Notes under the pieces: generated by a model
The model's database searches: none
What the model was told of the DNA's origin: nothing
The model's input: the letters and a program-made list of their open reading frames with translations, nothing else
Translations under genes and position numbers: made by a program
Source: a virus
Length of the DNA stretch: 30,763 bases
Strand: one strand, 5' to 3'
Virus record (IMG/VR): IMGVR_UViG_3300035114_000006
Coordinates: 1-30,763 of that record
Shown: piece after piece, positions 130 through 28,211 of the stretch
Numbering within the stretch: the stretch's first letter is position 1
How the letters are laid out: every line of letters begins with the position of its first letter

Positions 130-161
130 GCGCCGCCGAGGGAAACGGCGGCGCCTTTTTT
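130..161 (+). terminator. rho-independent terminator
   Basis: A perfect 9-bp stem (GCGCCGCCG at 130-138 with CGGCGGCGC at 146-154, loop of 7) is followed by a run of six T at 156-161 on the plus strand. It would stop rightward transcription just before the 3' end of the leftward integrase gene. On the minus strand the hairpin lies right after the integrase stop but has no U-tract, so it is weaker in that direction. Confidence 0.75.
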
Positions 162-1044
162 ACGCGAACGGTGACGACAGAGCGATCGCCTTCGGTGTCC
201 AGCGCATGTAGTGGCGGCGGATGATGTCGCTCGTCATCGGGTCGCCCTTGTGACCAAGCCAGTGCGCGACCCACTCTGCCAGGCGCTTCATGTCCATGTT
301 CTTCGCGGCCCCGAGCTCGAACTGGTACGAGACGCACGACCGGCGAAGTCCGAGCTGCGTGATTCGCGGCAATCCCGCGCGCAGGCACACGCGCGCCATC
401 GGCTTGATCGGCGACACCCACCAATCCGGAGCCACCCGCTGCGCATCGGCGACGATGCCGCCGGTTACGAACCAGTCCTCGAGGATGCGCGCGAACTCCG
501 CCGGCAGCGGCAGCCACGCCGGGTCCGCCTTGGACTTCGTGTTGTACCGCAGCCACTCGCCCTTGGTCAGGTTCACGTCGGAGCGTCTCCACCGCTTCAC
601 GTCGGACGTGTGCATGCCCGTCCAGAACAGAACGTCGATTCCGATCCGCTGCTCCGGCTCGAACGCCAGCCGACCCTGGCGCCACTGGTCGTAGGTCCAC
701 AGGTCTTGCCCCGGCTTCGAGTCGCTGGCGATGTCCGGCCACCAATCCACGGTGCGCGGCAACAGGCCGCGACGGTAGCAGTCCTCAAGCGCCATGCGCA
801 ATGTGACGAGGCGCTTCTTGACCGTCGCCACCATGATCCCGCGCGCCTTCTCGCTCTCGATGTACTCCAGCACACACGGGAACGTCACCTTGGAAACGTG
901 GCAGTCGCCGAACCAATCAACTAGCCACCGACGGTGATCGCGATGCTGGGACTTCGTTGCATCCGCGCAGTCTCGGTGTTCGATGGTCCAGGTTATTGCT
1001 TCGTACAGCGTGCCTTCCGTGTAGATCGCTAACTCCAGCTGCAT
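160..1044 (-). CDS. int: tyrosine-type integrase with altered catalytic residues
   Basis: This 294-residue protein has the layout of a phage tyrosine recombinase: an N-terminal SAM-like core-binding domain (about residues 10-100) and a C-terminal catalytic domain. It would integrate and excise phage DNA at att sites. Visible catalytic landmarks are the hairpin lysine near K170/K172, R234 in the LGLRRS box, H265 in WLGH and the nucleophile Y279 in RRHYMR. Two positions depart from the usual R-K-H-R-H-Y set: the first Arg is His145 (GMHTSDV where GxRxSEL is usual), and the His of the HxxR box is Leu231. The ATG at 1044 has a good GGGGAGA ribosome site. It is the last gene of the leftward early operon, after the annealing and SSB-like genes. 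Family assignment is firm; normal activity is not, given the substitutions. Confidence 0.85.
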   Translation of the reverse strand: MQLELAIYTEGTLYEAITWTIEHRDCADATKSQHRDHRRWLVDWFGDCHVSKVTFPCVLEYIESEKARGIMVATVKKRLVTLRMALEDCYRRGLLPRTVDWWPDIASDSKPGQDLWTYDQWRQGRLAFEPEQRIGIDVLFWTGMHTSDVKRWRRSDVNLTKGEWLRYNTKSKADPAWLPLPAEFARILEDWFVTGGIVADAQRVAPDWWVSPIKPMARVCLRAGLPRITQLGLRRSCVSYQFELGAAKNMDMKRLAEWVAHWLGHKGDPMTSDIIRRHYMRWTPKAIALSSPFA

Positions 1045-2126: not shown

Positions 2127-3212
2127 TTAGAACGGAACCTTGTCGCCCCTGTCTTTCAGCTTCTTCATGCGTTCGATCGCGTTCGACGCCTGCGTCTTCG
2201 TCAAGAGCTTCGACGTGTTGACGTGATAGAGCTTCTCCAGCGTCGCGCGGTACTCGACGTCGCCGAGCTGCAGCTCCTGCTTGAGGATGTGGATCGAAGC
2301 GAGCTGTTCGTTACTGGCCTTGGGTTCGATCGTGACCTCGCCCGTCGAGTGATCGGTGACTTCGATGCGCCCGGCATCGGTCAGCTTCTGCGTGACCGTC
2401 TTCGGCAGCGCCTTGTCGAGATGGCGCGCGATGTCGCTGGCGGTCGCCGCGCGTTCTCCCTTGTGGACCTTGACCGACTCGTCGACCGGAATCGGACCGC
2501 CCACCATGGCCGCCAGCGTCTCCGCGTTCGCTCGGTCGGCGGCCACGACCGCCGACGGTAGATCGGGCTGGGGCCACGCGCCCTCTTTCGCCGCGGTCAC
2601 CTTCGGCATGTTCCCGCCGCGCTTCGGCACGTCGATCTTCTTGATCCACTTACCCCCGTAGCAGATGGTGTTCTCTTCCTTGTACCTCTTGGTCCAGGAC
2701 CGATCCCAAATCTGCCAGGCGATGCCCAGGTCCTTGCAGCAGCGGACGAGCGCGTTGGACTTTGCGATCTCCAATGCCGTCCCGTAATCGCTCTTGGGGT
2801 TGGACGTGATCCATCGCCCTTCGCCCATCGCCTCGGCGATGAAGCGGCCCCCGACGTAGAGCAGCCCCGTGTAGAACACCGTCGGAGATGCCTCGCCCTT
2901 CGTCGTCGTGGTCGTGCGATCGACCACGGGCGCGCCGTTGCTTCGGATGGCCCAGCCGCCCATTCCGAAAGCGCGCACGAGACGCTGGCGATAGTGGACC
3001 TGCGGCATGTAGAGCTCGCCATCGTCGGGCTTCACCTGGATCTCGTTTTCGTCCAGCGGCGCGGCCAAGATCGCCTGCTGCTCGGGCGTGAACGGCGACG
3101 ACGCAATCCCGACGTAGGCGTTTTCGGCCGGGTCATGCACCGTGAGACCGCGTTCCTGATCGGTGTCCATCGCGCGTAGCGCAACGTCGGTAACTTCTGC
3201 CGTGGCGGTCAT
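2127..3212 (-). CDS. Rad52-type single-strand annealing protein
   Basis: A 361-residue protein whose core (about residues 55-172) matches the Rad52-like phage recombinase pattern. It has a YMPQVHYRQRLVRAFG stretch, a YTGLLYVGGRF strand pair, then GEGRW, SDYGTALEIAKSNAL and LGIAWQIWD, the conserved helix lining the DNA groove. The C-terminal third is Lys-rich with a helical segment (NEQLASIHILKQEL) like those used to contact SSB. It would anneal complementary strands in phage recombination or replication. The ATG overlaps the preceding stop (ATGA). The next gene encodes an SSB-like protein, supporting the role. No partner exonuclease is next to it; the VRR-NUC protein at 6141 is the only nuclease nearby. 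Confidence 0.75.
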   Translation of the reverse strand: MTATAEVTDVALRAMDTDQERGLTVHDPAENAYVGIASSPFTPEQQAILAAPLDENEIQVKPDDGELYMPQVHYRQRLVRAFGMGGWAIRSNGAPVVDRTTTTTKGEASPTVFYTGLLYVGGRFIAEAMGEGRWITSNPKSDYGTALEIAKSNALVRCCKDLGIAWQIWDRSWTKRYKEENTICYGGKWIKKIDVPKRGGNMPKVTAAKEGAWPQPDLPSAVVAADRANAETLAAMVGGPIPVDESVKVHKGERAATASDIARHLDKALPKTVTQKLTDAGRIEVTDHSTGEVTIEPKASNEQLASIHILKQELQLGDVEYRATLEKLYHVNTSKLLTKTQASNAIERMKKLKDRGDKVPF

Positions 3213-7521: not shown

Positions 7522-7854
7522 CTACTTCCAGACCTTCGCGAGCACGATGCCGGCTATCGACACGGCCAACGCCGCCAGCGCGAGCAGCAGGCTCAACATC
7601 CATTTCATCGAGCTGATTCTGACGGCCAGCGACGCTATCGTTTTCTCGACGCCGGAGATCGCGACCTTCAGCGCTCCGATCGCCTCCGCGTCCTCGACCC
7701 GGTGATCGGCCAGCTCCTTTCGCAGTCCCGCCTGGCTGTCCTGGCGATCTTTATCGGCCTCTTCCAAGTCCTTCACCCTCCCGTCGATTGATTCGACCTT
7801 TTGGGAGAGTACGGCCAGGTCTGTGGATTCTTCCCGGGCTTTTCGGGGGCTCAT
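7522..7854 (-). CDS. coiled-coil protein with C-terminal membrane anchor
   Basis: A 110-residue protein: an acidic/basic coiled coil over residues 10-75, then one transmembrane helix (about 84-106, MLSLLLALAALAVSIAGIVL) and a short basic tail. This resembles XhlA-type and other holin-associated phage proteins. It lies at the end of the leftward late region after two other small membrane proteins, so a lysis role is plausible. No ribosome site is obvious before ATG 7854. Confidence 0.6.
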   Translation of the reverse strand: MSPRKAREESTDLAVLSQKVESIDGRVKDLEEADKDRQDSQAGLRKELADHRVEDAEAIGALKVAISGVEKTIASLAVRISSMKWMLSLLLALAALAVSIAGIVLAKVWK

Positions 7855-8159: not shown

Positions 8160-8269
8160 TGGAACTCCGCGATCACTTCCTTGAGGCCATCGATACACAT
8201 GTGCGAGAGACCGCACAGGGCAGGGACGACCAGCGCGACGACGATACATGCCCCGCGGATCGTCGTCAC
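8156..8269 (-). CDS. 37-residue membrane microprotein
   Basis: A short frame with GTGA overlaps at both ends: GTG 8269-8267 overlaps the esterase stop, and its TGA at 8158-8156 overlaps the next GTG. It encodes one hydrophobic segment (ACIVVALVVPALCGLSHM) with a short charged tail. The precise coupling on both sides argues it is translated. It could be a small holin-like or holin-modulating protein. Confidence 0.5.
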   Translation of the reverse strand: MTTIRGACIVVALVVPALCGLSHMCIDGLKEVIAEFQ

Positions 8270-8994
8270 GCGAATGCTATCTTCGAGAACGCGACCGCAC
8301 TGAGCCACAGTTTGCCGTTGTCGTTCGGGTGAATCCCATCCGACGTCAAGATCGATGGCCCGGACGCAACGTTGCTCAGATTGTTAGCCTGTTCCCACTG
8401 CCACAGTGTGGCGCGAGGGTTCGCAAAGCACACGCTGAGCGTATCGCACGTCGTCTGCAGCGCCGCTGTCTTCGAGTCGATGAGCGCGTCATCCGCGTTG
8501 TTTCCGACAGGGCCTGTCGTCCAGAGCTCGCCATGCGTAAGGGCGGCGACGAAAAGCAGCCGCACGCTCGGTATCGCCGCGCGCGTCTGGGTAATGATGG
8601 TCGTGAGGTCGGTCTGGCTCTGCAGGTCCGTGCGAAACCCGTTGATGACGTCGTTGATCTCGCAGGCGATGATCACGACGGTCGGGTTGTACTGCGTGAT
8701 CCTGCCCGGCACGTCAGCGGCGATGTTGAAGAGCCGATTGCCGCTTACCCCAGAGTTGACCCATGTCACCGGGCTTGCCGGAGGTCCAGGCGGCGATACA
8801 TATGGAGGCGCCACCCGAACGGCGGCCTGCCCGGCTAATACCGTCGCATAACCAGGGTAGTTCGGCGCGGGAACCGCGAAGGCTCGCGTTACCGAGTCCT
8901 GCAGCGGCACGTACGACCCGATCTCAACCAGCGAATCGCCGACGATCACGATCGTATCGCCGCGCCGTATCGTGACCGTGGATGGCGACGGCAT
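8266..8994 (-). CDS. SGNH/GDSL-family hydrolase, probable tail esterase
   Basis: A 242-residue protein with SGNH-hydrolase blocks in order. Block I has GDSL with nucleophile Ser21, block II has Gly in NSGVSGN, block III is CEIND (Asn and Asp kept, but the usual Gly is Glu), and block V is DGIHPND with Asp219 and His222. Such enzymes in phages usually deacetylate surface polysaccharide during adsorption. It lies after the lectin-like and appendage genes, fitting a virion-associated esterase. No signal peptide is seen. Confidence 0.8.
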   Translation of the reverse strand: MPSPSTVTIRRGDTIVIVGDSLVEIGSYVPLQDSVTRAFAVPAPNYPGYATVLAGQAAVRVAPPYVSPPGPPASPVTWVNSGVSGNRLFNIAADVPGRITQYNPTVVIIACEINDVINGFRTDLQSQTDLTTIITQTRAAIPSVRLLFVAALTHGELWTTGPVGNNADDALIDSKTAALQTTCDTLSVCFANPRATLWQWEQANNLSNVASGPSILTSDGIHPNDNGKLWLSAVAFSKIAFA

Positions 8995-17928: not shown

Positions 17929-18231
17929 ATGCGTCGATGGCTGGTGCTGCTGGCGGTCCTGTCGGGGTGCGCGGAGGCGACCACCGATCCGGTGCAGATG
18001 TCGCTGGACGCCGATGCGGGCGTGGACACAGGAGCGGCGGCGCCGGATGCGCGGCCGCTCGTCTGCCCACCGGGCGACCGTGGCGAGAACTGCATCAGTC
18101 CGGCCGGCAAGCGTACGTTCAAGGGCGACTACGCCTGTGCGCTGCCGAACGGTCGCCTGGAGATCGGGTGCACCTACGCCGACGACCCGAACGTGACGTT
18201 GATCGTCGCGTCCTGCGCCGAGTGTCAGTAG
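17929..18231 (+). CDS. lipoprotein with acidic Asp/Ala-rich linker
   Basis: A 100-residue protein with a clear type II signal peptide (MRRWLVLLAVLSGC, lipid attachment at Cys14). An acidic linker rich in Asp and Ala (SLDADAGVDTGAAAPDARP) precedes a small Cys-containing domain with six Cys between about 46 and 99, likely disulphide-bonded. The linker is typical of myxobacterial surface lipoproteins. The gene is on the strand opposite to the late operon and starts 19 bases from the divergent tail-hub start. Probably a moron expressed from the prophage, altering the host surface; an outer-membrane spanin is an alternative but it lies far from any inner partner. Confidence 0.7.
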   Translation: MRRWLVLLAVLSGCAEATTDPVQMSLDADAGVDTGAAAPDARPLVCPPGDRGENCISPAGKRTFKGDYACALPNGRLEIGCTYADDPNVTLIVASCAECQ

Positions 18232-18234
18232 GAG

Positions 18235-18591
18235 ATGCGCGCGCTCCTGCTGGCGGCGCTGCTGGCGGCGGCCTGTGCGAGCGCCGGCGAGACACGCCTT
18301 AGCTCGCACACGTTCCAGATCGTCTACAAGACGCGCCACAACCGATCGCCGCAAGAGGCTCTCTCGGCGGCGCTGCGCCGGGCCGCCGAGATCACGCTGC
18401 GCGAAGGCTTCGAGTATTTCGCCGTGGTCGATCGCGACGCCAGCGAGTCCTACCGGGCATACGACGACATGGCCGGAAAGCGGCAACTGACGTCGCGCTC
18501 CACAGCTACGCTCACGTTCCGCGTCATCCCCGCCAACGACGGCGAGGGCCGCGTAAACGCCTACAGCGCGCGCATGATCCTGCGCCGCTGA
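18235..18591 (+). CDS. lipoprotein resembling the CC0125/CC1285 family
   Basis: A 118-residue protein with signal peptide and lipobox (LLAALLAAAC, Cys14). The mature part has FQIVYKTRHNRSPQEALSAALRRAAEITLREGFEYFAVVD, matching the pattern of CC0125/CC1285-type lipoproteins (a beta strand, then a helix with RAAELT and GYDYF). ATG 18235 follows the previous stop by three bases, with GGAG touching the start codon. These family members are usually chromosomal envelope proteins, so this looks like host-derived cargo. It converges with the minus-strand gene ending at 18594. Confidence 0.7.
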   Translation: MRALLLAALLAAACASAGETRLSSHTFQIVYKTRHNRSPQEALSAALRRAAEITLREGFEYFAVVDRDASESYRAYDDMAGKRQLTSRSTATLTFRVIPANDGEGRVNAYSARMILRR

Positions 18592-20041: not shown

Positions 20042-20299
20042 TCACTCCGGGCCGAGCAGAACGTCGGGGTCGATTTCCTCGGACGGCGATGGCGCCAGTT
20101 CGGGCTCGTAGTCGTCGGCGTCCGGCGGCTCGAGCATCGAACGCACGGCGGCCAGGAACGCCACGCGGTCGCCCCGGTTGACGGCCTCGATCGCGGCGCC
20201 GGAGAACTCCAGCGCCGGATCTTCCGCCGTGGCCTCGGGCCCATCGGAGCCGGCATACCGACTCGCGACGTCCCGAGCGATGTCGTCGACCAGCGCCAT
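20042..20299 (-). CDS. 85-residue acidic protein in the head block
   Basis: ATG 20299 overlaps the preceding stop (TGATG). A helical N-terminal half (MALVDDIARDVASRYAG; IEAVNRGDRVAFLAAVRSML) is followed by a very acidic tail (PPDADDYEPELAPSPSEEID). Small acidic proteins in this position are often head-completion factors or chaperones; no family match is recognised. Confidence 0.6.
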   Translation of the reverse strand: MALVDDIARDVASRYAGSDGPEATAEDPALEFSGAAIEAVNRGDRVAFLAAVRSMLEPPDADDYEPELAPSPSEEIDPDVLLGPE

Positions 20300-20706
20300 C
20301 AATCGGGCTTCAGGTTCTTCAGGAAGAGGGTGATCACGGCGATGTCGCCCTGGCGCGGGTCGGCCGCGACGCCGGTGTCCGGCCGGAGGAACGTGACCGT
20401 CACCTTCGGCGTGGCCGCCGTGCTGTTCTCGGTCGTGACCTTGCCGAAGGTTCCGGCGGTGGAATCGAGCGTTCCGAACGTCTCGGCGCGCGAGCCGAGG
20501 CACGCCAGCCACCCGGCCTTCAGGAAGACGTCGTAGACGCCGGTACCGGTCCGCACCACCGGGGTGGCGGTGCGGAACTCCTTGGCGCGCTTTCCGCTGC
20601 CCTGGATGGCACCCACGGCGCCGGTCGCACCGACGGCGAACTGAATCACCACCGGCACGGTCCCCGCCTCGGGGGCCTTCATCAGGTACTTGATCGGGCT
20701 TGCCAT
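20299..20706 (-). CDS. 135-residue putative capsid decoration protein
   Basis: Lies immediately after the coat gene with a GGAGACC ribosome site before ATG 20706. It is Ala/Gly/Val/Thr-rich and mostly beta (VPVVIQFAVGATGAVGAI, GVYDVFLKAGWLACLG, TPKVTVTFLRPDTGVAADPRQGDIAVITLFLKNLK). Position and composition fit a small beta-sandwich decoration or head protein. No specific family is recognised. Confidence 0.6.
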   Translation of the reverse strand: MASPIKYLMKAPEAGTVPVVIQFAVGATGAVGAIQGSGKRAKEFRTATPVVRTGTGVYDVFLKAGWLACLGSRAETFGTLDSTAGTFGKVTTENSTAATPKVTVTFLRPDTGVAADPRQGDIAVITLFLKNLKPD

Positions 20707-20733
20707 CGTGGTCTCCTGTTGGGCGTCAGCCGC

Positions 20734-22101
20734 TTACGCAATCTGAGCGACGCCGTTCGCGCCCGGGAACGAGCACGAGAGGTTCGCGAGGTACTTCCAG
20801 CGGAGCTGGACGCCGTCGGCCGTCGCCAGGTCGATCAGCTGATCCTTTCCGGCGCGGCCGGCCATCTTGATCGGCTTGTTCCGCGGGCTGCGCAGGAACC
20901 ACGTGCGCATGTCGAGCGCGTAGAAGCGGTCCGAATCGCAGCCGGGCGCCGCGTACAGCGTGCACGGGCCCTTGGGGCCGATGTGGCGGATGCCCTCGTA
21001 GTAGGCGACCGCGGCCTCGCCGGTGCCGGAGTTGCGCACGTAGACCGCCTGGTTCTGGAGGCTGTCCTCGTACGCCTGGTAGAACTCCGGGTTGCACATC
21101 AGGACCCGCGGGTCGGCCTGGCGGTTGATCGAGATGCGGGTCAGCAGCGCGTTGACCGCCTGCTTGGGATCCAGGTTGCGCGCGTCGATGCGGACGCCGG
21201 CGAGCTTGTTCGGATCCACGCTCCGGTCGATGCCGGTGGCGTCGGAGCCCGAAGGCGCCGTGATCGGGATCCAGAGCTTGAGACCGAGCACCTTCAGCGC
21301 CGTGGTCAGCGAGCCCGAGATCTTGTCGGCCGTGTAGAACAGGAAGTGCGTGTCATTGGAGCCGCCGGCCCAGCCGCCGTTCGCCGTGACGGTGATGGTG
21401 CCCGCGTCGGTGTCCACCGCCGTGACGGTGAAGGACCCGGTATCCAGGGAGCCGCCGTTGACGGTCGCGCAGCTCACGCCGACGTCGCCCACCTGCCACT
21501 TGATCGTGTCGGTGCGCTGGCTGAGCGTCAGGACGAAGGGACCGCCGCCGGTGTGCGATCCGATCACGCCGCGCGAGCCGAAGCCGTCGCCGAACATGTC
21601 GTACTCGAGGTCTTCGGAGACCTTCCTCATGCAGCCTTCGCCGGCGTCGCCGAGGAGTTCCACGATCGCGCCGTCGTCGCTGTCCGAGACGTCGATTTCG
21701 GTGTTGTCGACGTTCTCCACCGCGTAGCTCTTGCCCCACGGCGTGATGAACTTCTTGCGCGACTCGCTGGACTGGTTCGTGATCGCGCTCGCGATGTCGG
21801 CGCCGTGGCCGGCGGTGCGGCCGATCTTGATCGCCTGGATGATCTGCTGGCCGTAGCCTTCGATCTTGTTCACCAAGCCGAAGAACACGTTGTCTCGGTA
21901 CGCTGCGTCCTCGTACGCGGCGCTGTACCAGTCCTTCAGGCCGGCGGCGGCGTTGTCGCTGATGTTCAGGATGGACAGCGCCAGCGGGACGATGCGCGTC
22001 CATCCCTTGAGGCGCGCGAACGCGACGAGCGCGACGGCGACCAGGACCAGCGGGGCGGCGTAGTGGGCCAGGGCGGCGAGAATCGTGTGGGCGATGGACA
22101 T
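20734..22101 (-). CDS. major capsid protein with N-terminal hydrophobic helix
   Basis: A 455-residue protein lying after the scaffold gene, with typical HK97-fold coat features: an N-arm (SDNAAAGLKDWYSAAYEDAAYRDN), a helix and strands in the middle, an inserted beta-domain around residues 180-260, and a C-terminal core (RVLMCNPEFYQAYEDSL; FYALDMRTWFLRSPRNKPIKM). It would form the icosahedral shell. Unusually, residues about 6-28 (HTILAALAHYAAPLVLVAVALVAFA) are a strong transmembrane-like helix followed by Arg/Lys (RLKGWTR). The start is firm: GAGGAAAAG precedes ATG 22101, and no ATG, GTG or TTG lies between this helix and the coat N-arm. By the positive-inside rule the coat domain would face the cytoplasm. 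See findings for the possible link to the CPBP protease. Confidence 0.8.
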   Translation of the reverse strand: MSIAHTILAALAHYAAPLVLVAVALVAFARLKGWTRIVPLALSILNISDNAAAGLKDWYSAAYEDAAYRDNVFFGLVNKIEGYGQQIIQAIKIGRTAGHGADIASAITNQSSESRKKFITPWGKSYAVENVDNTEIDVSDSDDGAIVELLGDAGEGCMRKVSEDLEYDMFGDGFGSRGVIGSHTGGGPFVLTLSQRTDTIKWQVGDVGVSCATVNGGSLDTGSFTVTAVDTDAGTITVTANGGWAGGSNDTHFLFYTADKISGSLTTALKVLGLKLWIPITAPSGSDATGIDRSVDPNKLAGVRIDARNLDPKQAVNALLTRISINRQADPRVLMCNPEFYQAYEDSLQNQAVYVRNSGTGEAAVAYYEGIRHIGPKGPCTLYAAPGCDSDRFYALDMRTWFLRSPRNKPIKMAGRAGKDQLIDLATADGVQLRWKYLANLSCSFPGANGVAQIA

Positions 22102-22117
22102 GGTCTTTTCCTCAGGG

Positions 22118-23131
22118 TCAGGGTTGACGGGCGGCGAGACGGGTGCGCTTCAAGATCTCGGCCTTCTTAGAAGCGAGGTCCTTGGAAGCGGGAGATGGTT
22201 CGGTTGATGCGCGGGCCGCGACGGACGGCTGCGACACGGCCGGTATGGTCTTGCGCGCGGGCGGGGGATCGGCGCCCTTCGGGGCCGGGGCGATGTCGGG
22301 CGTGCCGTAGCGCGCGGCGCGCGCGGCGAAATCCTTCTCGATGCGGTCGAGGCAATCGCGGACGAGCGCGGTCGCTTCCTCCTGGGTCGGCAGCCACTTC
22401 TCGCCCTTCGTCTTGCGCAACTCGGCCACGACCTTGCGGCCGGCGTCGATGGCGAGCCCGATGCCCTCGGATAGGTTCTCGTCGGAGCGCGACAGGCGCG
22501 GCCAACGGCCCTTCTCGGCGTCGATGACATCCTTGACGCCCGCGCGCCCCGCCTGCTCGGCGGCTTCGGCCTGCGTCTTGGTGGCGCGCTCCTGGTCGGC
22601 CTTCTCGCGGTCGTCCAGGCGCTTCTGGAGCTCGGCGATCTTGCGATCGTGGTCGGTCAGCTCCTTGTGCGCCGGGTTGTCCGTGCGCCGGAGATAGGCC
22701 GCCGACAGCTTCTCGATGTCGACGTCGGGGAACTCGTCGAAAAAGGTCCCCGGGTCGGCCTTCATGCGCTCGACCAGCGCCGCGTACTTGTCCTCGGTCG
22801 CGACCGGCGCGGCCTCGGGCTTCGGCGGGGCGGTGAGCTTCGTTGACAGCTCGGCGATCTGCGCCTTCAGCGCGGCGATCTCGCTCGTCGTGTCGGAGGC
22901 GACCGGCGCGGGCGTGGTCGGCGCGGCGGCATCGGTCGCAGGGGCCGGAGTCGAACCGGCGGGGGCGGGGTTATGGGCCCCGCTCGAGCCCAGCTCTCCC
23001 TGCTCTGTGCGTGCCGGATCACCGGCGCGGGCGCGCGCCAAGATCTCGGCCTTGCGGGACTCCAGCGACGCCGGGGGCGTCTCGGTGCCCGCTTCCGTTC
23101 CTTCCTGTCCCTCGCCCGACTGTGTGGCCAT
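22118..23131 (-). CDS. scaffolding protein
   Basis: A 337-residue, low-complexity, mostly helical protein directly upstream of the coat gene: Ala/Pro-rich N-terminal part, coiled coils (EIAALKAQIAELSTKL; DHDRKIAELQKRLDDREKADQ) and a basic C-terminus, the usual layout of podovirus scaffolds whose C-terminal helix binds coat. A short motif is repeated near both ends: SRKAEILARARAG at about 25-37 and SKKAEILKRTRLA close to the C-terminus. ATG 23131 is preceded by GGGTGA and the leader element. The CPBP gene's open frame runs into this gene's first ~113 bases. Confidence 0.75.
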   Translation of the reverse strand: MATQSGEGQEGTEAGTETPPASLESRKAEILARARAGDPARTEQGELGSSGAHNPAPAGSTPAPATDAAAPTTPAPVASDTTSEIAALKAQIAELSTKLTAPPKPEAAPVATEDKYAALVERMKADPGTFFDEFPDVDIEKLSAAYLRRTDNPAHKELTDHDRKIAELQKRLDDREKADQERATKTQAEAAEQAGRAGVKDVIDAEKGRWPRLSRSDENLSEGIGLAIDAGRKVVAELRKTKGEKWLPTQEEATALVRDCLDRIEKDFAARAARYGTPDIAPAPKGADPPPARKTIPAVSQPSVAARASTEPSPASKDLASKKAEILKRTRLAARQP

Positions 23132-23528
23132 TCACCCGGGCGCGCGCGGCACCGAAACTAACCGCGAGGTTGGCGATCAGGTGGGCGGCGACCGCGGCGG
23201 CCAGATCGCCGGTCAGCATCGTGATGCCGCCCAGCGCCAGACCGCACAGGAGCGCGAACGCAGCCCAGGCGAGATGCCGCGAGCGCGGGCCGGCGTGGCA
23301 GAGCGCGAAGGCCGCGCTGGAGACGATCAGGCCATCGGCCTGTAACAGCAGCCCGCGAAACACGATCTCCTCGCCCGCGGCCGCCGCCAGCGCCAGCACC
23401 ATCGGGATACGCAGGCCGTACGCCTCATTTCGCAGCGCGCGCGCCCACGCGAACCACGCGACCGCCAGCCGCACGGCACCGGCCATCGCCAGTCCAGCGG
23501 CGACGCCGGCGGCCGCGTGCCAGATCAC
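23019..23528 (-). CDS. CPBP-family (CAAX-type) intramembrane protease
   Basis: From GTG 23528 (overlapping the upstream stop as GTGA) the frame encodes 169 residues with several hydrophobic helices. All three catalytic boxes of the CPBP/Abi family are present and in order: EExxxR (Glu53, Glu54, Arg58 in GEEIVFRG), FxxxH (Phe74, His78) and HxxxN (His116, Asn120). These glutamic-type intramembrane proteases cleave within or next to membrane helices. The gene lies between portal and scaffold genes, where phages usually encode the prohead protease. After residue ~123 the frame passes through the leader element and into the scaffold gene, giving a basic, low-complexity tail of ~46 residues that the family does not need; a TAG in another frame at 23160-23158 would be the natural end. 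A host-derived moron is the alternative. Confidence 0.75.
   Translation of the reverse strand: MIWHAAAGVAAGLAMAGAVRLAVAWFAWARALRNEAYGLRIPMVLALAAAAGEEIVFRGLLLQADGLIVSSAAFALCHAGPRSRHLAWAAFALLCGLALGGITMLTGDLAAAVAAHLIANLAVSFGAARARVNGHTVGRGTGRNGSGHRDAPGVAGVPQGRDLGARPRR
23139..23158 (-). promoter_or_regulatory. late leader element, copy 3
   Basis: Begins GTTTCGGTGCCG and ends GCGCC; GGTGC and GCGCC can pair around CGCGC. It ends 7 bases before the scaffold ATG at 23131, and a GGGTGA ribosome site fills that gap. It overlaps the 3' part of the CPBP reading frame. Confidence 0.75.
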
Positions 23529-23683
23529 GACGGGAGGGCGTCGACGAGATCGCGCAGGAAGGCGCGCAGCTCGTCCGGGTCCCACACGAGCGCTTCGGCT
23601 CGCGCGCGCAGGCCCTCGAGCTGGGCCTTCCTGTCGTCAGCGGCGTCCGCTGCGTCGTTGGTCTCGGTCTTTGGCTTCGGCAT
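23525..23683 (-). CDS. 52-residue small head-block protein
   Basis: ATG 23683 has a strong AGGAGA ribosome site and begins 13 bases after the portal stop. Lys/Asp-rich N-terminus (MPKPKTETNDAADAADDRK), then one long amphipathic helix (LEGLRARAEALVWDPDELRAFLRDLVDAL). Its stop overlaps the CPBP start (GTGA), coupling the two. It could be a small portal- or scaffold-associated peptide; no family recognised. Confidence 0.6.
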   Translation of the reverse strand: MPKPKTETNDAADAADDRKAQLEGLRARAEALVWDPDELRAFLRDLVDALPS

Positions 23684-23696
23684 GGCGGTCTCCTGG

Positions 23697-25571
23697 TCAG
23701 GCCGCCATCGGCGGCGCGGTGCTTGGGGTTGCTTGGACGGGGGGCGCGGCGGGGGCGCCGGCGGGGGAAGCGGTTGGGGATGGCGGCGCCAGGAACTGCT
23801 GGCCGCTTTCGATCTGCGTCGACACCGCCGCCATGAACGCCACGAGCTGGCGCAGGACCTTGCGGTCCGTGCCGAGGCGCTTCTCGAGCGCCCAGCGGTC
23901 ACGGGCGGTCGCCAGGGCGCGCGGGAGGTCGTTGTACGGCTCTGGCGGGCAGAACTTCCCGGTCTTTACGATCTCGTTCAGCGTCGTCTCGATCAGGTCG
24001 TCTTCGGCGGTCGCCAGCATCGCGTACGCCTTCAGGTCGGGCATCTGCTGAAGCTTGAAGCGGATTCGCTTATCGATGACCCCGTCAGCGTACCACTCGG
24101 CGATCTGCTGCTGCCGGCCGGCCGGGTCGTTCGGAAGCGACGAGACCGGGAACACGGCGACCTTGCGCTGGTCCTTCGCCAGCTTCAGATCGCCCCACGC
24201 GATGCGTCCGCCGCGCACGCCCGGCACGTTCACACTGAGGTTGATCTCCTCGGCGGCCTCCACGGCGAGCTCGGCGATGTCCTTCACCAGCTGCTCGAGC
24301 GCAACCTGCAGCGCCTGGTTCCGGGCGTCCTCGATCTGGACCATGGTGCGCAGCGCGGCGCCCGACGTGATCCCGGGCTGCTTGAGGCCGGCGGTCTGCT
24401 GCTGGGACAGGCCCACGCGCTGGAAGGCGCGGTTTATCCAGCGCTCCAGCTCCTGGTAGGCGTCGGGCGCATTGGACGTGACCACGATCGGCTCCACTTG
24501 CCCGCCCCCGACCTTGCGGATGATCCGCCCGGGGCGACCGCCCAGCGCCTCGGCCTTGATCTGGGTGTTCTGGTCCACGATCCAGCCGGAGAACGCCATG
24601 CGGTCGCCGTTGGCGTCGATGCGCTCCTCCCATTTGTTGATCTTGATCTGGTACGGCAGCATGGCGTGGGCCGCGGACCCGCCGCGCCAGCCGAGCGACC
24701 GTCGCGTCCACAGGAACCGCGCGAAGGGGAAGTGATCGCGCGTCCAATCGTCATCGTCGAGAAGGTAGTTCGGCAGCGCCAGGCATCGGCGCCCGGGCTT
24801 GCCATCAGCGCCGGGGCGCTTCCAGCCTTCGAGCAGAGCGATCTGCTGGATGGGAGCCGCCGAGCCCCAGAAGGCCGCGCCGAACGCCGACGGCGCCGAG
24901 CGCACGGCCGCCGCGATCTTGTCGCGCTCTTTCGCCGGCGCGATGTCAGCGTACGCCATGGCGTCGTCGCGCATCATGTAGCGGCGCTGGATGAGCGAGC
25001 CGGGCGCGCCGGTCAGCGTCTCCGATTCGTCGTACAAAATCTCGTCGTCCAGCGTGCGGCCGATCTCGAGACACTTCCGGTCAAACGACGGCTGGACCTT
25101 CACCCATCCGGTGCCCCACGTACCACCGTCGCGGAAGGTCAGTCCTGTGGTGTCGTAGAGGCGGCACTCGTCGAAGAGCGCGTCGACGAAGTGCTCGGCC
25201 TGCTCGCACGCGAGCCGCGTGTCGATGTCGCCGCCCTTCGGCAGCACCTGCACGAACGGGCGCAGCGTGCCGATCCTGTTCTCGAAGACCTCCAGCGCGC
25301 TCGCCACGACGTTGATCGCCGGCTCCTGGTAGTTCCCCAGGCCGAGCCCAGTGACCGCGTTCGCGGGTCGCGACGACATCCAATACGAGAACAGCGCCGG
25401 GGCCTCGTCGCCGGTCACGAGCCGGTAGAGCAGGGCCTGCCGGTAGCGCCGCTGCCGGTTGATCAGTTCGAGCGCGCCGGCCTGGCCATACATCGCGCGT
25501 GCGCAATCCTCGTCCTGCTTGGACTTGTCGAACCAGGCCGCGGCCGGGAGATTGGGGTTCTGGGGCGTCAT
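23697..25571 (-). CDS. portal protein
   Basis: A 624-residue protein with podovirus portal character: an N-terminal helical part (GALELINRQRRYRQALLYRLVTG), YQEPAINVVASALEVFENRIGTLRPFVQVLP, a DESETLTGAPGSLIQRRYM wing segment, SLGWRGGSAAHAMLPYQIKINKWEERID, a stem/crown region with the long helix (SGAALRTMVQIEDARNQALQVALEQLVKDIAELAV) and a Pro/Ala-rich C-terminus. It forms the dodecameric channel for DNA packaging and exit. ATG 25571 overlaps the preceding stop (ATGA). Confidence 0.8.
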   Translation of the reverse strand: MTPQNPNLPAAAWFDKSKQDEDCARAMYGQAGALELINRQRRYRQALLYRLVTGDEAPALFSYWMSSRPANAVTGLGLGNYQEPAINVVASALEVFENRIGTLRPFVQVLPKGGDIDTRLACEQAEHFVDALFDECRLYDTTGLTFRDGGTWGTGWVKVQPSFDRKCLEIGRTLDDEILYDESETLTGAPGSLIQRRYMMRDDAMAYADIAPAKERDKIAAAVRSAPSAFGAAFWGSAAPIQQIALLEGWKRPGADGKPGRRCLALPNYLLDDDDWTRDHFPFARFLWTRRSLGWRGGSAAHAMLPYQIKINKWEERIDANGDRMAFSGWIVDQNTQIKAEALGGRPGRIIRKVGGGQVEPIVVTSNAPDAYQELERWINRAFQRVGLSQQQTAGLKQPGITSGAALRTMVQIEDARNQALQVALEQLVKDIAELAVEAAEEINLSVNVPGVRGGRIAWGDLKLAKDQRKVAVFPVSSLPNDPAGRQQQIAEWYADGVIDKRIRFKLQQMPDLKAYAMLATAEDDLIETTLNEIVKTGKFCPPEPYNDLPRALATARDRWALEKRLGTDRKVLRQLVAFMAAVSTQIESGQQFLAPPSPTASPAGAPAAPPVQATPSTAPPMAA

Positions 25572-25795
25572 GGGCTGCGCTCCACCTGCACCTGCAGGCC
25601 GCCGCTCTTGCGCCGCATACGCCCCGCGAAGCGCTCCCGGAAGCGGTCAGCCGCGCAGCCACACACCCGCATGGGGTTGTCGAGCGCGCCGCGTCCGTCG
25701 CACGCCTGGCACGCCGGGTCAGCGCACGAGGCAACGACCTCGTTCGTGGCGAGCCTCCACTTCCGGGACCGGCGAATCCGGGCCTGCTTGCCCAT
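25568..25795 (-). CDS. 75-residue zinc-finger-like protein
   Basis: Very basic N-terminus (MGKQARIRRSRKWRL), then Cys24, Cys29, Cys32, Cys45 and Cys47 in a pattern (CADPACQACDGRG...CGC) reminiscent of a DnaJ-type Cys-rich knuckle. ATG 25795 overlaps the upstream stop (TGATG). It lies between terminase and portal. Role unknown. Confidence 0.6.
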   Translation of the reverse strand: MGKQARIRRSRKWRLATNEVVASCADPACQACDGRGALDNPMRVCGCAADRFRERFAGRMRRKSGGLQVQVERSP

Positions 25796-26052
25796 CAGTT
25801 CGCCTCGACCTCGGAGTCTTCGCCGAGGGGGAACGGGTCATCGGACAGTGCCGCACGGAGCGGGTCCTTCGGCGGCTCCGGCGGTCGCATGTCGCGCCGG
25901 GTCTCTGGGTCGAGCGCGTCCTCGGCGTCGACGCCGGGCTGCGCGCCGGGCGCGAAGAACTCCAACTCGGTACGCCCGCGCTCGTTCACGTAGCGGCTGA
26001 CTCCGGCGTCCTTCAGGGTCGCGAGAAGCGCTTTCAGGCCGATTCGGGGCAT
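25795..26052 (-). CDS. 85-residue acidic protein
   Basis: First gene of the portal cassette. ATG 26052 is preceded by GGGGTGA and the leader element at 26061-26080. A basic, helical N-terminal third (MPRIGLKALLATLKDAG) is followed by an acidic, Pro-rich tail (DPETRRDMRPPEPPKDP; GEDSEVEAN). No family recognised. Confidence 0.6.
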   Translation of the reverse strand: MPRIGLKALLATLKDAGVSRYVNERGRTELEFFAPGAQPGVDAEDALDPETRRDMRPPEPPKDPLRAALSDDPFPLGEDSEVEAN

Positions 26053-26060
26053 TCACCCCA

Positions 26061-26080
26061 GGGGCGACCGGCACCGAAAC
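26061..26080 (-). promoter_or_regulatory. late leader element, copy 4
   Basis: Begins GTTTCGGTGCCG and ends GCCCC. It starts two bases after the terminase stop and ends 8 bases before ATG 26052. The GGTGC/GCCCC pairing has one central mismatch. Confidence 0.75.
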
Positions 26081-26082
26081 CG

Positions 26083-27627
26083 TCAGTGCCAGCCGACGGC
26101 GACAGACAGAGCGTCGGGGCGCCCCTCGCCATCGCCCATGACCTCGGCCATGTCCTCGGCGGCGATGGCGGCCAGCTCGCGCTCTGCCTCGGTGCGCTTG
26201 TCGGGCGCCTCGTAGGCGTCGAAGTAGGGGCCGAGCGTGTAGCGCATCGCCTCGGACGGGTCTGGGTGCCAGGCGCTGGCCCAGCGCCACAGGCCCTTCG
26301 CGCGTGCGTCAGGGTCCCACCGAGCCTTCGTGTAGTCCTCGGCCAGCGCCGAGCCGTTCATCACCAGCAACCTACCCTCGGTCAGCAGGCCGTTGTTCCG
26401 CCGCACCTGGCCTGGCATGTCGGATTTCTCGGCGGCCTTGATGACGGGTATGCCGTGGTCGCGCTGGAACACGTCCAGTTCGTTCTTGCTGCTGCCGGCG
26501 TCGTAGCGCCACCAGCCGGGCCGCAGATGCCGCTGGACGATGCCGCAGACCATGCCCATCTGGCCCCAGGAGACGTTCGCCTTGCGCGGCGTGGCCCACT
26601 CGAACACCTGCTGCACCTTCGGCGATCGCCGACCCCAGCCGCACACCTCAAGCGCGGCGCGGTCAACGGATCCAGGGTCCAGCGCGGCGCTGAAGTACTC
26701 GATGCCCTCAAGCGGGACGGCGGCAAGCATGGACGCGATCGGGACGCCGGCCGCCTCGAGCTCGGCGCGCGCGCTCTCCAGCCACGCGGGCGGCATGGCG
26801 TCGTAGCCGTTCAGCAGCGGCGAGTAGCGGTACGCCGTCGCGTTCAAGTCAAACGCGAACTTGCCGAACCACTCTCGTTGTACTTCCGGGCTGTCCTGGG
26901 TCAGCCCAGGGTTTGCCGTCAGGTACGCCGCCAGCGCGGCGGGCTGATTGCGCAGGTGCGGGTTTTCGAAGCGCGACCAGTTATGCCTCGACCACGCCCC
27001 CTCGTTCCACACCTCCATGAACCGGCCTGCGTTGACCTCGGGGATCGTGCCGGCCATGACGAGCTTGCCGGGCCGGTCCATGTCGTCGAGCAGCGCGTTC
27101 GGCAGAATGCGCGTGGTCAGCGGGACCAGGATGCTGTCCGTCTGGCTCTGCGACTCGTCGACGATGGCCAGGTCCAGCCGGTTTCCCAGGAACGAATCGA
27201 TGTGCCGGATGTCGTCGGTGCCCGACACGTACATGACCGATCCGTTGGGAAACGTGGTCGTCATCTCGTCCTCGAGGCGCTTGTGCTGGATCTTCAGGCC
27301 GTCCAGCAGCGGACACCAGACCTCGTTCCACAAGAATTTGCGCGCGTGCGGCTTGCTCAAGCCCACGTAGAGGATGTTCCGCCGCGGTGTCGCGAGCGCG
27401 GTCAGCAGCGCCAGGGCGGCGAGCCCATACGTCTTGCCGGCGCGGCGCGAGCAGAGCACGACCATGTACGGCGCGGGGTCGCGGATCATGGCCAGCTGGC
27501 GCAGGTGGTCTTTGGCCAGGGTCTCGGCGGTAACGCGGGCCAGCAGCTCGGTCTGACCTGTGCGAGCGCGGCGTTCCGCTTCCTTCTCGGCCGCGCGCTG
27601 GAACCGCCGCGCGAGCTTCGCGTTCAT
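26083..27627 (-). CDS. terL: terminase large subunit
   Basis: A 514-residue packaging motor. The ATPase domain has a Walker A variant CSRRAGKT (59-66) and Walker B LDLAIVDE (Asp157, Glu158), followed by a coupling-type segment (GKLVMAGTIP). The C-terminal nuclease domain shows the acidic positions expected of the RNase H-like fold: AALDPGS, WWRYDAGSSKNELD and GRPDALSVAVGW near the end. ATG 27627 overlaps the stop of the gene upstream (ATGA); the open frame before it is out of phase with that gene and is not used. Confidence 0.9.
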   Translation of the reverse strand: MNAKLARRFQRAAEKEAERRARTGQTELLARVTAETLAKDHLRQLAMIRDPAPYMVVLCSRRAGKTYGLAALALLTALATPRRNILYVGLSKPHARKFLWNEVWCPLLDGLKIQHKRLEDEMTTTFPNGSVMYVSGTDDIRHIDSFLGNRLDLAIVDESQSQTDSILVPLTTRILPNALLDDMDRPGKLVMAGTIPEVNAGRFMEVWNEGAWSRHNWSRFENPHLRNQPAALAAYLTANPGLTQDSPEVQREWFGKFAFDLNATAYRYSPLLNGYDAMPPAWLESARAELEAAGVPIASMLAAVPLEGIEYFSAALDPGSVDRAALEVCGWGRRSPKVQQVFEWATPRKANVSWGQMGMVCGIVQRHLRPGWWRYDAGSSKNELDVFQRDHGIPVIKAAEKSDMPGQVRRNNGLLTEGRLLVMNGSALAEDYTKARWDPDARAKGLWRWASAWHPDPSEAMRYTLGPYFDAYEAPDKRTEAERELAAIAAEDMAEVMGDGEGRPDALSVAVGWH

Positions 27628-28019
27628 GACGGCGTCTGCTGCCGGATCGCCTGCCACCAGGACAGCACAGGATCGGGCGCGCCCTTGAGCATCTCCTCGA
27701 TCTCGTCGTCCGACGCGATCTCGCGCACAGGCCCGATCACGCGGTTCAGGTAGAGAGTCATCCACGTGGCGTCGTACTCGATCTCGGTGGCTACCCGTAC
27801 GCCCCTGTGGTACACGCCCCGCTCGACGCCCATCGCAACGCGCCTAACCATGGCGAAGATCTCGCGCAGGTTGGCGACGGTGCGGTGCTCCTCGTCCAGC
27901 ATCTCTTCGATGTCCTGGATCTTGCGCCGGCGCCCACCCGGGTTGCCGCTCTGACCAGGCTGGAACGGACGCCCAGGACCACGGCGCCGCTTTGGCTGAT
28001 AGTCACTGCTTTCTGCCAC
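27624..28019 (-). CDS. DUF5681-type protein, probable terminase small subunit
   Basis: A 131-residue protein beginning with a Lys/Arg-rich segment and GRPFQPGQSGNPGGRRRK, the signature of DUF5681, which commonly precedes phage large terminase genes. The remainder is helical (IEEMLDEEHRTVANLREIFAMVRRVAMG). It probably recognises the packaging site. GTG 28019 is chosen over an out-of-frame ATG three bases upstream, because only this frame gives the DUF5681 motif. The leader element precedes it. Confidence 0.75.
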   Translation of the reverse strand: MAESSDYQPKRRRGPGRPFQPGQSGNPGGRRRKIQDIEEMLDEEHRTVANLREIFAMVRRVAMGVERGVYHRGVRVATEIEYDATWMTLYLNRVIGPVREIASDDEIEEMLKGAPDPVLSWWQAIRQQTPS

Positions 28020-28024
28020 ATACC

Positions 28025-28044
28025 TGCGCTTACGGCACCAAAAC
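28025..28044 (-). promoter_or_regulatory. late leader element, copy 5
   Basis: Reads GTTTTGGTGCCG (one change from the other copies) and ends GCGCA, 5 bases before the GTG start at 28019. The pairing is GGTGC with GCGCA, four of five. This is the most upstream copy in the late region. Confidence 0.7.
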
Positions 28045-28211
28045 CAGCCCCGAAACGCACCTGTGGCCGTCTCTGGATACCAGAGTCACTCCCTGATCCG
28101 TTTTCCCGGCAGTCGGCTATCAGAGCGATTGCAGCAACGGGGCACAGTCCCTGCTCGGCCACCTAGCGGTCGCCGCTCCCCGTGTCACAGCTCGTCGGCT
28201 GGGTACGCTCG
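28045..28211. other. noncoding region upstream of terminase, with palindrome
   Basis: About 170 bases with no convincing gene separate the early-type block from the terminase genes. It holds an exact inverted repeat CTCTGG-ATA-CCAGAG at 28071-28085 and a second partial leader-like string (GTTTCGGGGCTG, minus strand 28058-28047). It probably contains a main late promoter and may hold the packaging site, which often lies at or just before the small terminase gene. Confidence 0.4.

Follow-up and report, generated by a model that had tools for sequence, protein, structure and literature searches.

A CPBP-type intramembrane protease gene and a hydrophobic coat-protein extension in the head operon of a tailed phage

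Can the coat protein of a tailed phage be made as a membrane-anchored precursor and then be released by an intramembrane protease of the phage itself? The question is raised by the head genes of an IMG/VR viral record of 30,763 bases, the whole of which is called the window here. An initial annotation had paired a complete CPBP protease gene with a coat protein that starts with a transmembrane-like helix, with the proposal that the former cuts the anchor of the latter. Terminase, portal, and coat were identified by Pfam, PHROGs, and NCBIfam matches. The head genes all lie on the minus strand, in the order terminase large subunit, two small genes, portal, 52-aa protein, CPBP, scaffold-like gene, coat, and 135-aa gene. 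The two frames in question, CPBP from GTG 23528 and coat at 22101-20734, lie exactly where they had been annotated. The features are as follows.

26083..27765, minus strand: terminase large subunit (phrog_2, E 1e-23; PF03237)
23697..25571, minus strand: portal protein (phrog_156 portal, E 1e-4; phrog_332, E 7e-6)
23525..23683, minus strand: 52-aa protein, found in the L002 group and L006, absent from L007, L012, and L015
23019..23528, minus strand: CPBP (Rce1-like) intramembrane protease gene, GTG start (PF02517, 39.9 bits)
23355..23372, minus strand: CPBP motif 1, EEIVFR, residues 53-58, read from the sequence and kept in the relative
23295..23309, minus strand: CPBP motif 2, FALCH, residues 74-78, read from the sequence and kept in the relative
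23169..23183, minus strand: CPBP motif 3, HLIAN, residues 116-120 (HLAAN in the relative, H and N kept)
22118..23131, minus strand: scaffold-like gene, 337 aa, between CPBP and coat, assigned by position and similarity to the relatives' gene
20734..22101, minus strand: major capsid (coat) protein, 455 aa (NF033394, E 5e-22; phrog_9953, E 3e-8)
21985..22101, minus strand: residues 1-39 of the coat, an N-terminal extension that lies outside the family model and is lacking in three relatives
22015..22083, minus strand: residues 7-29 of the coat, the hydrophobic segment within the extension, with R30, K32, and R36 after it (Kyte-Doolittle 2.24, low hydrophobic moment)
20299..20706, minus strand: 135-aa gene after the coat

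The phage and its relatives

The gene content points to a phage that is probably temperate, with an integrase (160-1044, minus strand; phrog_1 match) and an Mgm101-type annealing protein (2127-3212, minus strand; PF06420, 130 bits). A GDSL lipase/acylhydrolase (8266-8994, minus strand; PF13472, 48 bits) lies downstream of the tail genes and is possibly a tail-associated esterase. Opposite the tail genes, two small plus-strand frames (17929-18231 and 18235-18591) have lipoprotein-like N-termini (LLAVLSGC and LLAALLAAAC) and no Pfam match; they are possible lysogenic-conversion genes. Among GenBank phages, tblastn gave no match for the coat, portal, or CPBP, nor for the coats of L007 and L015, and the terminase matched only a Leptospira phage, weakly. 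Portal and terminase profiles found no relatives among GTDB genomes.

Three related contigs, L002, L003, and L010, are 99.98-100% identical and are counted as one virus. Both the CPBP gene and the coat extension are present in the window and in this virus, and both are absent from L007 (coat 39% identical), L012 (38%), and L015 (25%). In these three divergent relatives the portal, scaffold-like gene, and coat adjoin, with no gene between portal and scaffold, and the coats begin MAINTSIN or MAPTPLN at about residue 38-40 of the window coat. A PF02517 search found no CPBP anywhere in their records, which may be fragments. The contig of L006 (UViG_3300046724_000501), which is more closely related (portal 72%), ends inside the 52-aa gene, just short of the expected CPBP position. 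When viral contigs were scanned with a DNA pattern for CPBP motif 1, the matches were the window's group plus 11 contigs that had no PF02517 match, and a scan for a coat C-terminal pattern returned no new relatives. The terminase of L010 (1851-3479) is mosaic, being mostly about 46% identical to that of the window and near-identical in its last ~40 residues, which suggests recombination upstream of the portal.

Relatives in which CPBP and extension come apart, which the initial annotation had taken as a sign against the link, were not seen: two genomes have both and three have neither. As the pair is confined to two distinct genomes, its co-occurrence amounts to one event, which one gain or one loss could explain. 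At the level of sequence the gene arrangement is real and unusual, and it has passed one comparative test of low power.

The relatives also bear on what the CPBP gene has displaced. It had been described as sitting where a prohead protease normally lies, which is misleading, as in the divergent relatives the portal gene is directly followed by the scaffold-like one. The accompanying remark that a soluble prohead protease is missing holds for the S78, S49, and S14 models, which had no match in the window or its relatives, but relatives lacking CPBP lack these enzymes too. The S77 model gave no match either, but its control was silent. A replacement of such an enzyme by CPBP is not borne out, since none is recognised in the divergent relatives, which are without CPBP; judged by these models, the lack is a family trait and not a gap filled by CPBP. 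Besides CPBP, these relatives lack the coat extension, and their scaffold-like gene is of the same kind as in the window. The window's scaffold-like protein is 29.6% identical to a gene of L020, which is the L007 contig (E 3e-9), and has no Pfam or NCBIfam match.

Inside the scaffold-like reading frame, ARAGORN calls a tRNA-Met(CAT) at 22934-23004 (minus strand). The call recurs in L002, L003, and L010, with changes at 3 of 71 positions, and its T-arm (GCCGG TTCGACT CCGGC) is well formed; in Rfam it matches only tRNA-Sec, below threshold (21.1 bits, E 0.09). It could be a chance product of a Pro/Ala linker, a stretch with two uses, or the remnant of an attachment site.

The CPBP gene and its possible targets

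The claim of a complete CPBP protease gene is borne out by its Pfam match, its catalytic motifs, and purifying selection. The protein matches PF02517 over profile positions 9-92 of 93 (E 5e-10, 39.9 bits against a cut-off of 22.4), and its counterpart in the L002 group reaches 44.1 bits. The EExxxR, FxxxH, and HxxxN motifs are all present in both. Over the core of 132 codons, the window and the 89%-identical relative L002 differ 8, 9, and 34 times at codon positions 1, 2, and 3, with a dN/dS of 0.16, which marks CPBP as a translated and selected protein. A chance open frame is ruled out by the selection, the motifs, and the Pfam match. The last 37 codons, which overlap the scaffold-like gene, carry nonsynonymous changes only and are unconstrained in the CPBP frame, and thus the functional enzyme would comprise about 132 residues (23528-23133). 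Four hydrophobic segments exceed a Kyte-Doolittle value of 1.6, and FALCH lies in a weaker one. The predicted structure (mean pLDDT 50) is too poor for a fold search, and the NCBIfam models for myxosortase, MrtJ, and MrtS score 17.8-23.6 bits, below their cut-offs of 75-130. By its sequence, the gene product is a CPBP/Rce1-like intramembrane glutamic protease of predicted activity.

The gene is packed into the head operon and overlaps a neighbour on either side. Its GTG start overlaps the stop of the 52-aa gene by 4 nt (GTGA), and its end overlaps the scaffold-like gene by 113 nt. Neither a consensus promoter nor a minus-strand terminator-like site was found in 20500-28100. The 52-aa protein directly upstream (23525-23683, minus strand) has a conserved C-terminal half (LRARAEALVWDPDELRAFLRDLVDA) and is a possible partner of CPBP.

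The target of the enzyme may lie elsewhere than in the coat, for instance in a host membrane protein or in another phage membrane protein (e.g. 7522-7854), or the enzyme may work in the exclusion of other phages. CPBP would then have entered the late operon by insertion with the 52-aa gene, in the lineage that carries the coat extension by coincidence. The roles of CPBP enzymes are varied, the phage encodes further hydrophobic proteins, the relatives build heads without CPBP, and relative to L007 and L012 the gene did arrive within a two-gene insertion. Set against these points, CPBP overlaps both neighbours and lacks a separate signal resembling a promoter or terminator, none of the PADLOC defence models matches it (nor do the PHROGs models), and the coat extension is found in CPBP-carrying genomes only. 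A target outside the coat is considered rather doubtful.

The hydrophobic extension of the coat

Residues 50-454 of the coat align with positions 4-309 of the 311 in the NCBIfam model NF033394, capsid_maj_Podo, with a score of 78.4 bits that falls just below the cut-off of 80. The protein is treated as a divergent capsid_maj_Podo homologue and not as an equivalog; phrog_9953, "major head protein", agrees. As regards an HK97 fold, SU10 capsid chains recur in weak Foldseek matches to the structure model (mean pLDDT 42), none of them significant (best 0.17), and searching solved structures by sequence yielded nothing of use.

The transmembrane-like start of the coat, followed by positive residues, was confirmed, as a moderate rather than an ideal segment. 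The best 19-mer, residues 7-25, has a mean Kyte-Doolittle value of 2.24, and the next best within the coat has 1.17. Of the 3122 stretches of 50 aa without a stop in the six frames, just 6 (0.2%) are as hydrophobic. No Lys, Arg, Asp, or Glu precedes the segment, and its hydrophobic moment of about 0.1 means that it is not amphipathic. H13, Y14, and P17 fall inside it, hence its grading as moderate for a transmembrane helix, and its summed insertion cost is slightly positive on a Hessa scale. By the positive-inside rule, such a segment would be oriented N-out, which would place the body of the coat on the cytoplasmic side.

Between the window and its relative, the 39 extension codons show 2 synonymous and 2 nonsynonymous differences, and the substitutions F28L and K32R preserve hydrophobicity and charge. 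The dS is 0.06 in the extension vs 0.22-0.25 in the remaining coat; with so few differences of any kind, selection on the protein sequence of the extension is not measurable from the window/L002 pair.

A mis-called start might in principle create such an extension. As the main reading this was rejected, for ATG 22101, which follows the scaffold-like gene at 17 nt, is preceded by a good ribosome site (GAGG 8 nt ahead), and no other in-frame ATG, GTG, or TTG occurs before residue 76, which lies well within the conserved coat body. A narrower version holds that translation begins at a non-standard CTG near residue 40 (MALSILNISDN), the upstream reading being a leader and no part of the working coat. 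That CTG does coincide with the start point of the relatives' coats. However, the GAGG stands ahead of the ATG, the sole purine-rich site ahead of the CTG, AAGGGA, lies at a distance of about 18 nt, which is not the usual spacing, residues 1-75 offer no alternative standard start, and the extension of the relative is likewise an open and hydrophobic frame. A CTG start is therefore regarded as very improbable.

Another possibility is that the extension stays on the mature coat, either as an inner N-arm that binds the scaffold or neighbouring subunits or as an uncut membrane tether for assembling heads. The N-arms of the JBD30 coat are procapsid helices that move on maturation (PMC11445458), and this coat family needs no protease. 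Yet the segment is uniformly hydrophobic and not amphipathic, and the relatives' coats have no such arm, so that a retained extension is judged unlikely.

Proposed release of the coat and known systems

The release of a membrane-anchored coat precursor through cutting by CPBP is, on the sequence evidence, the best single explanation; it is held tentatively, at less than even confidence, and is hardly ahead of two rivals, a retained anchor or arm and another CPBP target. A tailed phage with a capsid_maj_Podo-type coat would have gained the extension and a compact CPBP together in its head operon. The coat, translated from ATG 22101, would insert N-out/C-in through its uncharged N-tail and hydrophobic helix, favoured by R30, K32, and R36 after the helix, and its body would stay cytoplasmic at the inner membrane. 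There, the portal and the scaffold-like protein would co-assemble the procapsid. CPBP would cut the helix at its cytoplasmic end or close to it, at about residues 30-40, freeing the shell, and the trimmed coat would start where the relatives' coats start. As these begin at about residue 38-40, trimming there would restore a normal coat.

Several features argue for a link between CPBP and the coat: the protease gene is complete, under purifying selection, and packed into the operon; the extension is additional to the family model and to three relatives; and its segment is hydrophobic, not amphipathic, and conservatively substituted (F28L, K32R). Against it weigh the single co-occurrence event, a family that manages without a recognised prohead protease, the slightly positive insertion cost and, by analogy, an extension without the cysteine that MYXO-CTERM substrates carry. 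Moreover, hydrophobic segments also occur in other proteins of the phage (7522-7854, 28212-28661, and 4174-4389), which are possible substrates. The structure models of coat and CPBP (pLDDT 42 and 50) are too low to use and lend the mechanism no support.

Even if read more weakly, as a coat that acquired a hydrophobic helix at its N-terminus in step with the arrival of a membrane protease gene, the arrangement is unusual. The full proposal, a tailed-phage shell built from single-span membrane coat subunits whose procapsid is released by the phage's own intramembrane protease and not by an internal prohead protease, is doubtful. If true, it would tie CPBP to virion maturation, with a membrane-anchored coat freed by intramembrane proteolysis, and would offer a clean genetic system for asking why certain phage heads begin at the membrane. 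A search of the open-access literature found no paper on a phage CPBP acting on coat.

Among known systems, the prohead proteases of the HK97/T4 type (S78, S49, S14, S77) are soluble enzymes enclosed in the prohead, as is the T4 maturation protease gp21. They likewise take off an N-terminal part of the coat at maturation; unlike those systems, the window has no S78, S49, or S14 match. In the P22 type, head assembly is scaffold-dependent and protease-free. It shares with the window's family a separate scaffold-like gene directly ahead of the coat and the lack of a recognised prohead protease, and differs from the window in having neither CPBP nor a hydrophobic coat extension.

The CPBP enzyme myxosortase (MrtX) removes a hydrophobic-plus-arginine tag (PMC11980579). 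Like the window's enzyme it has EExxxR and HxxxN, and its tag is a hydrophobic helix with basic residues. The MYXO-CTERM tag, in contrast, is C-terminal, has an invariant cysteine, and serves surface sorting, whereas the coat segment is N-terminal and has no cysteine; against the myxosortase core model the window and L002 proteins score weakly (18.9 and 21.2 bits, cut-off 100). A parallel in place is T4, in which head assembly is initiated at the inner membrane by the portal (gp20) together with YidC and gp40 (PMC4493910). Head assembly at the cytoplasmic membrane would thus be common to T4 and the present proposal, but in T4 it is the portal that is membrane-associated, whereas the coat of the window carries a hydrophobic helix of its own.
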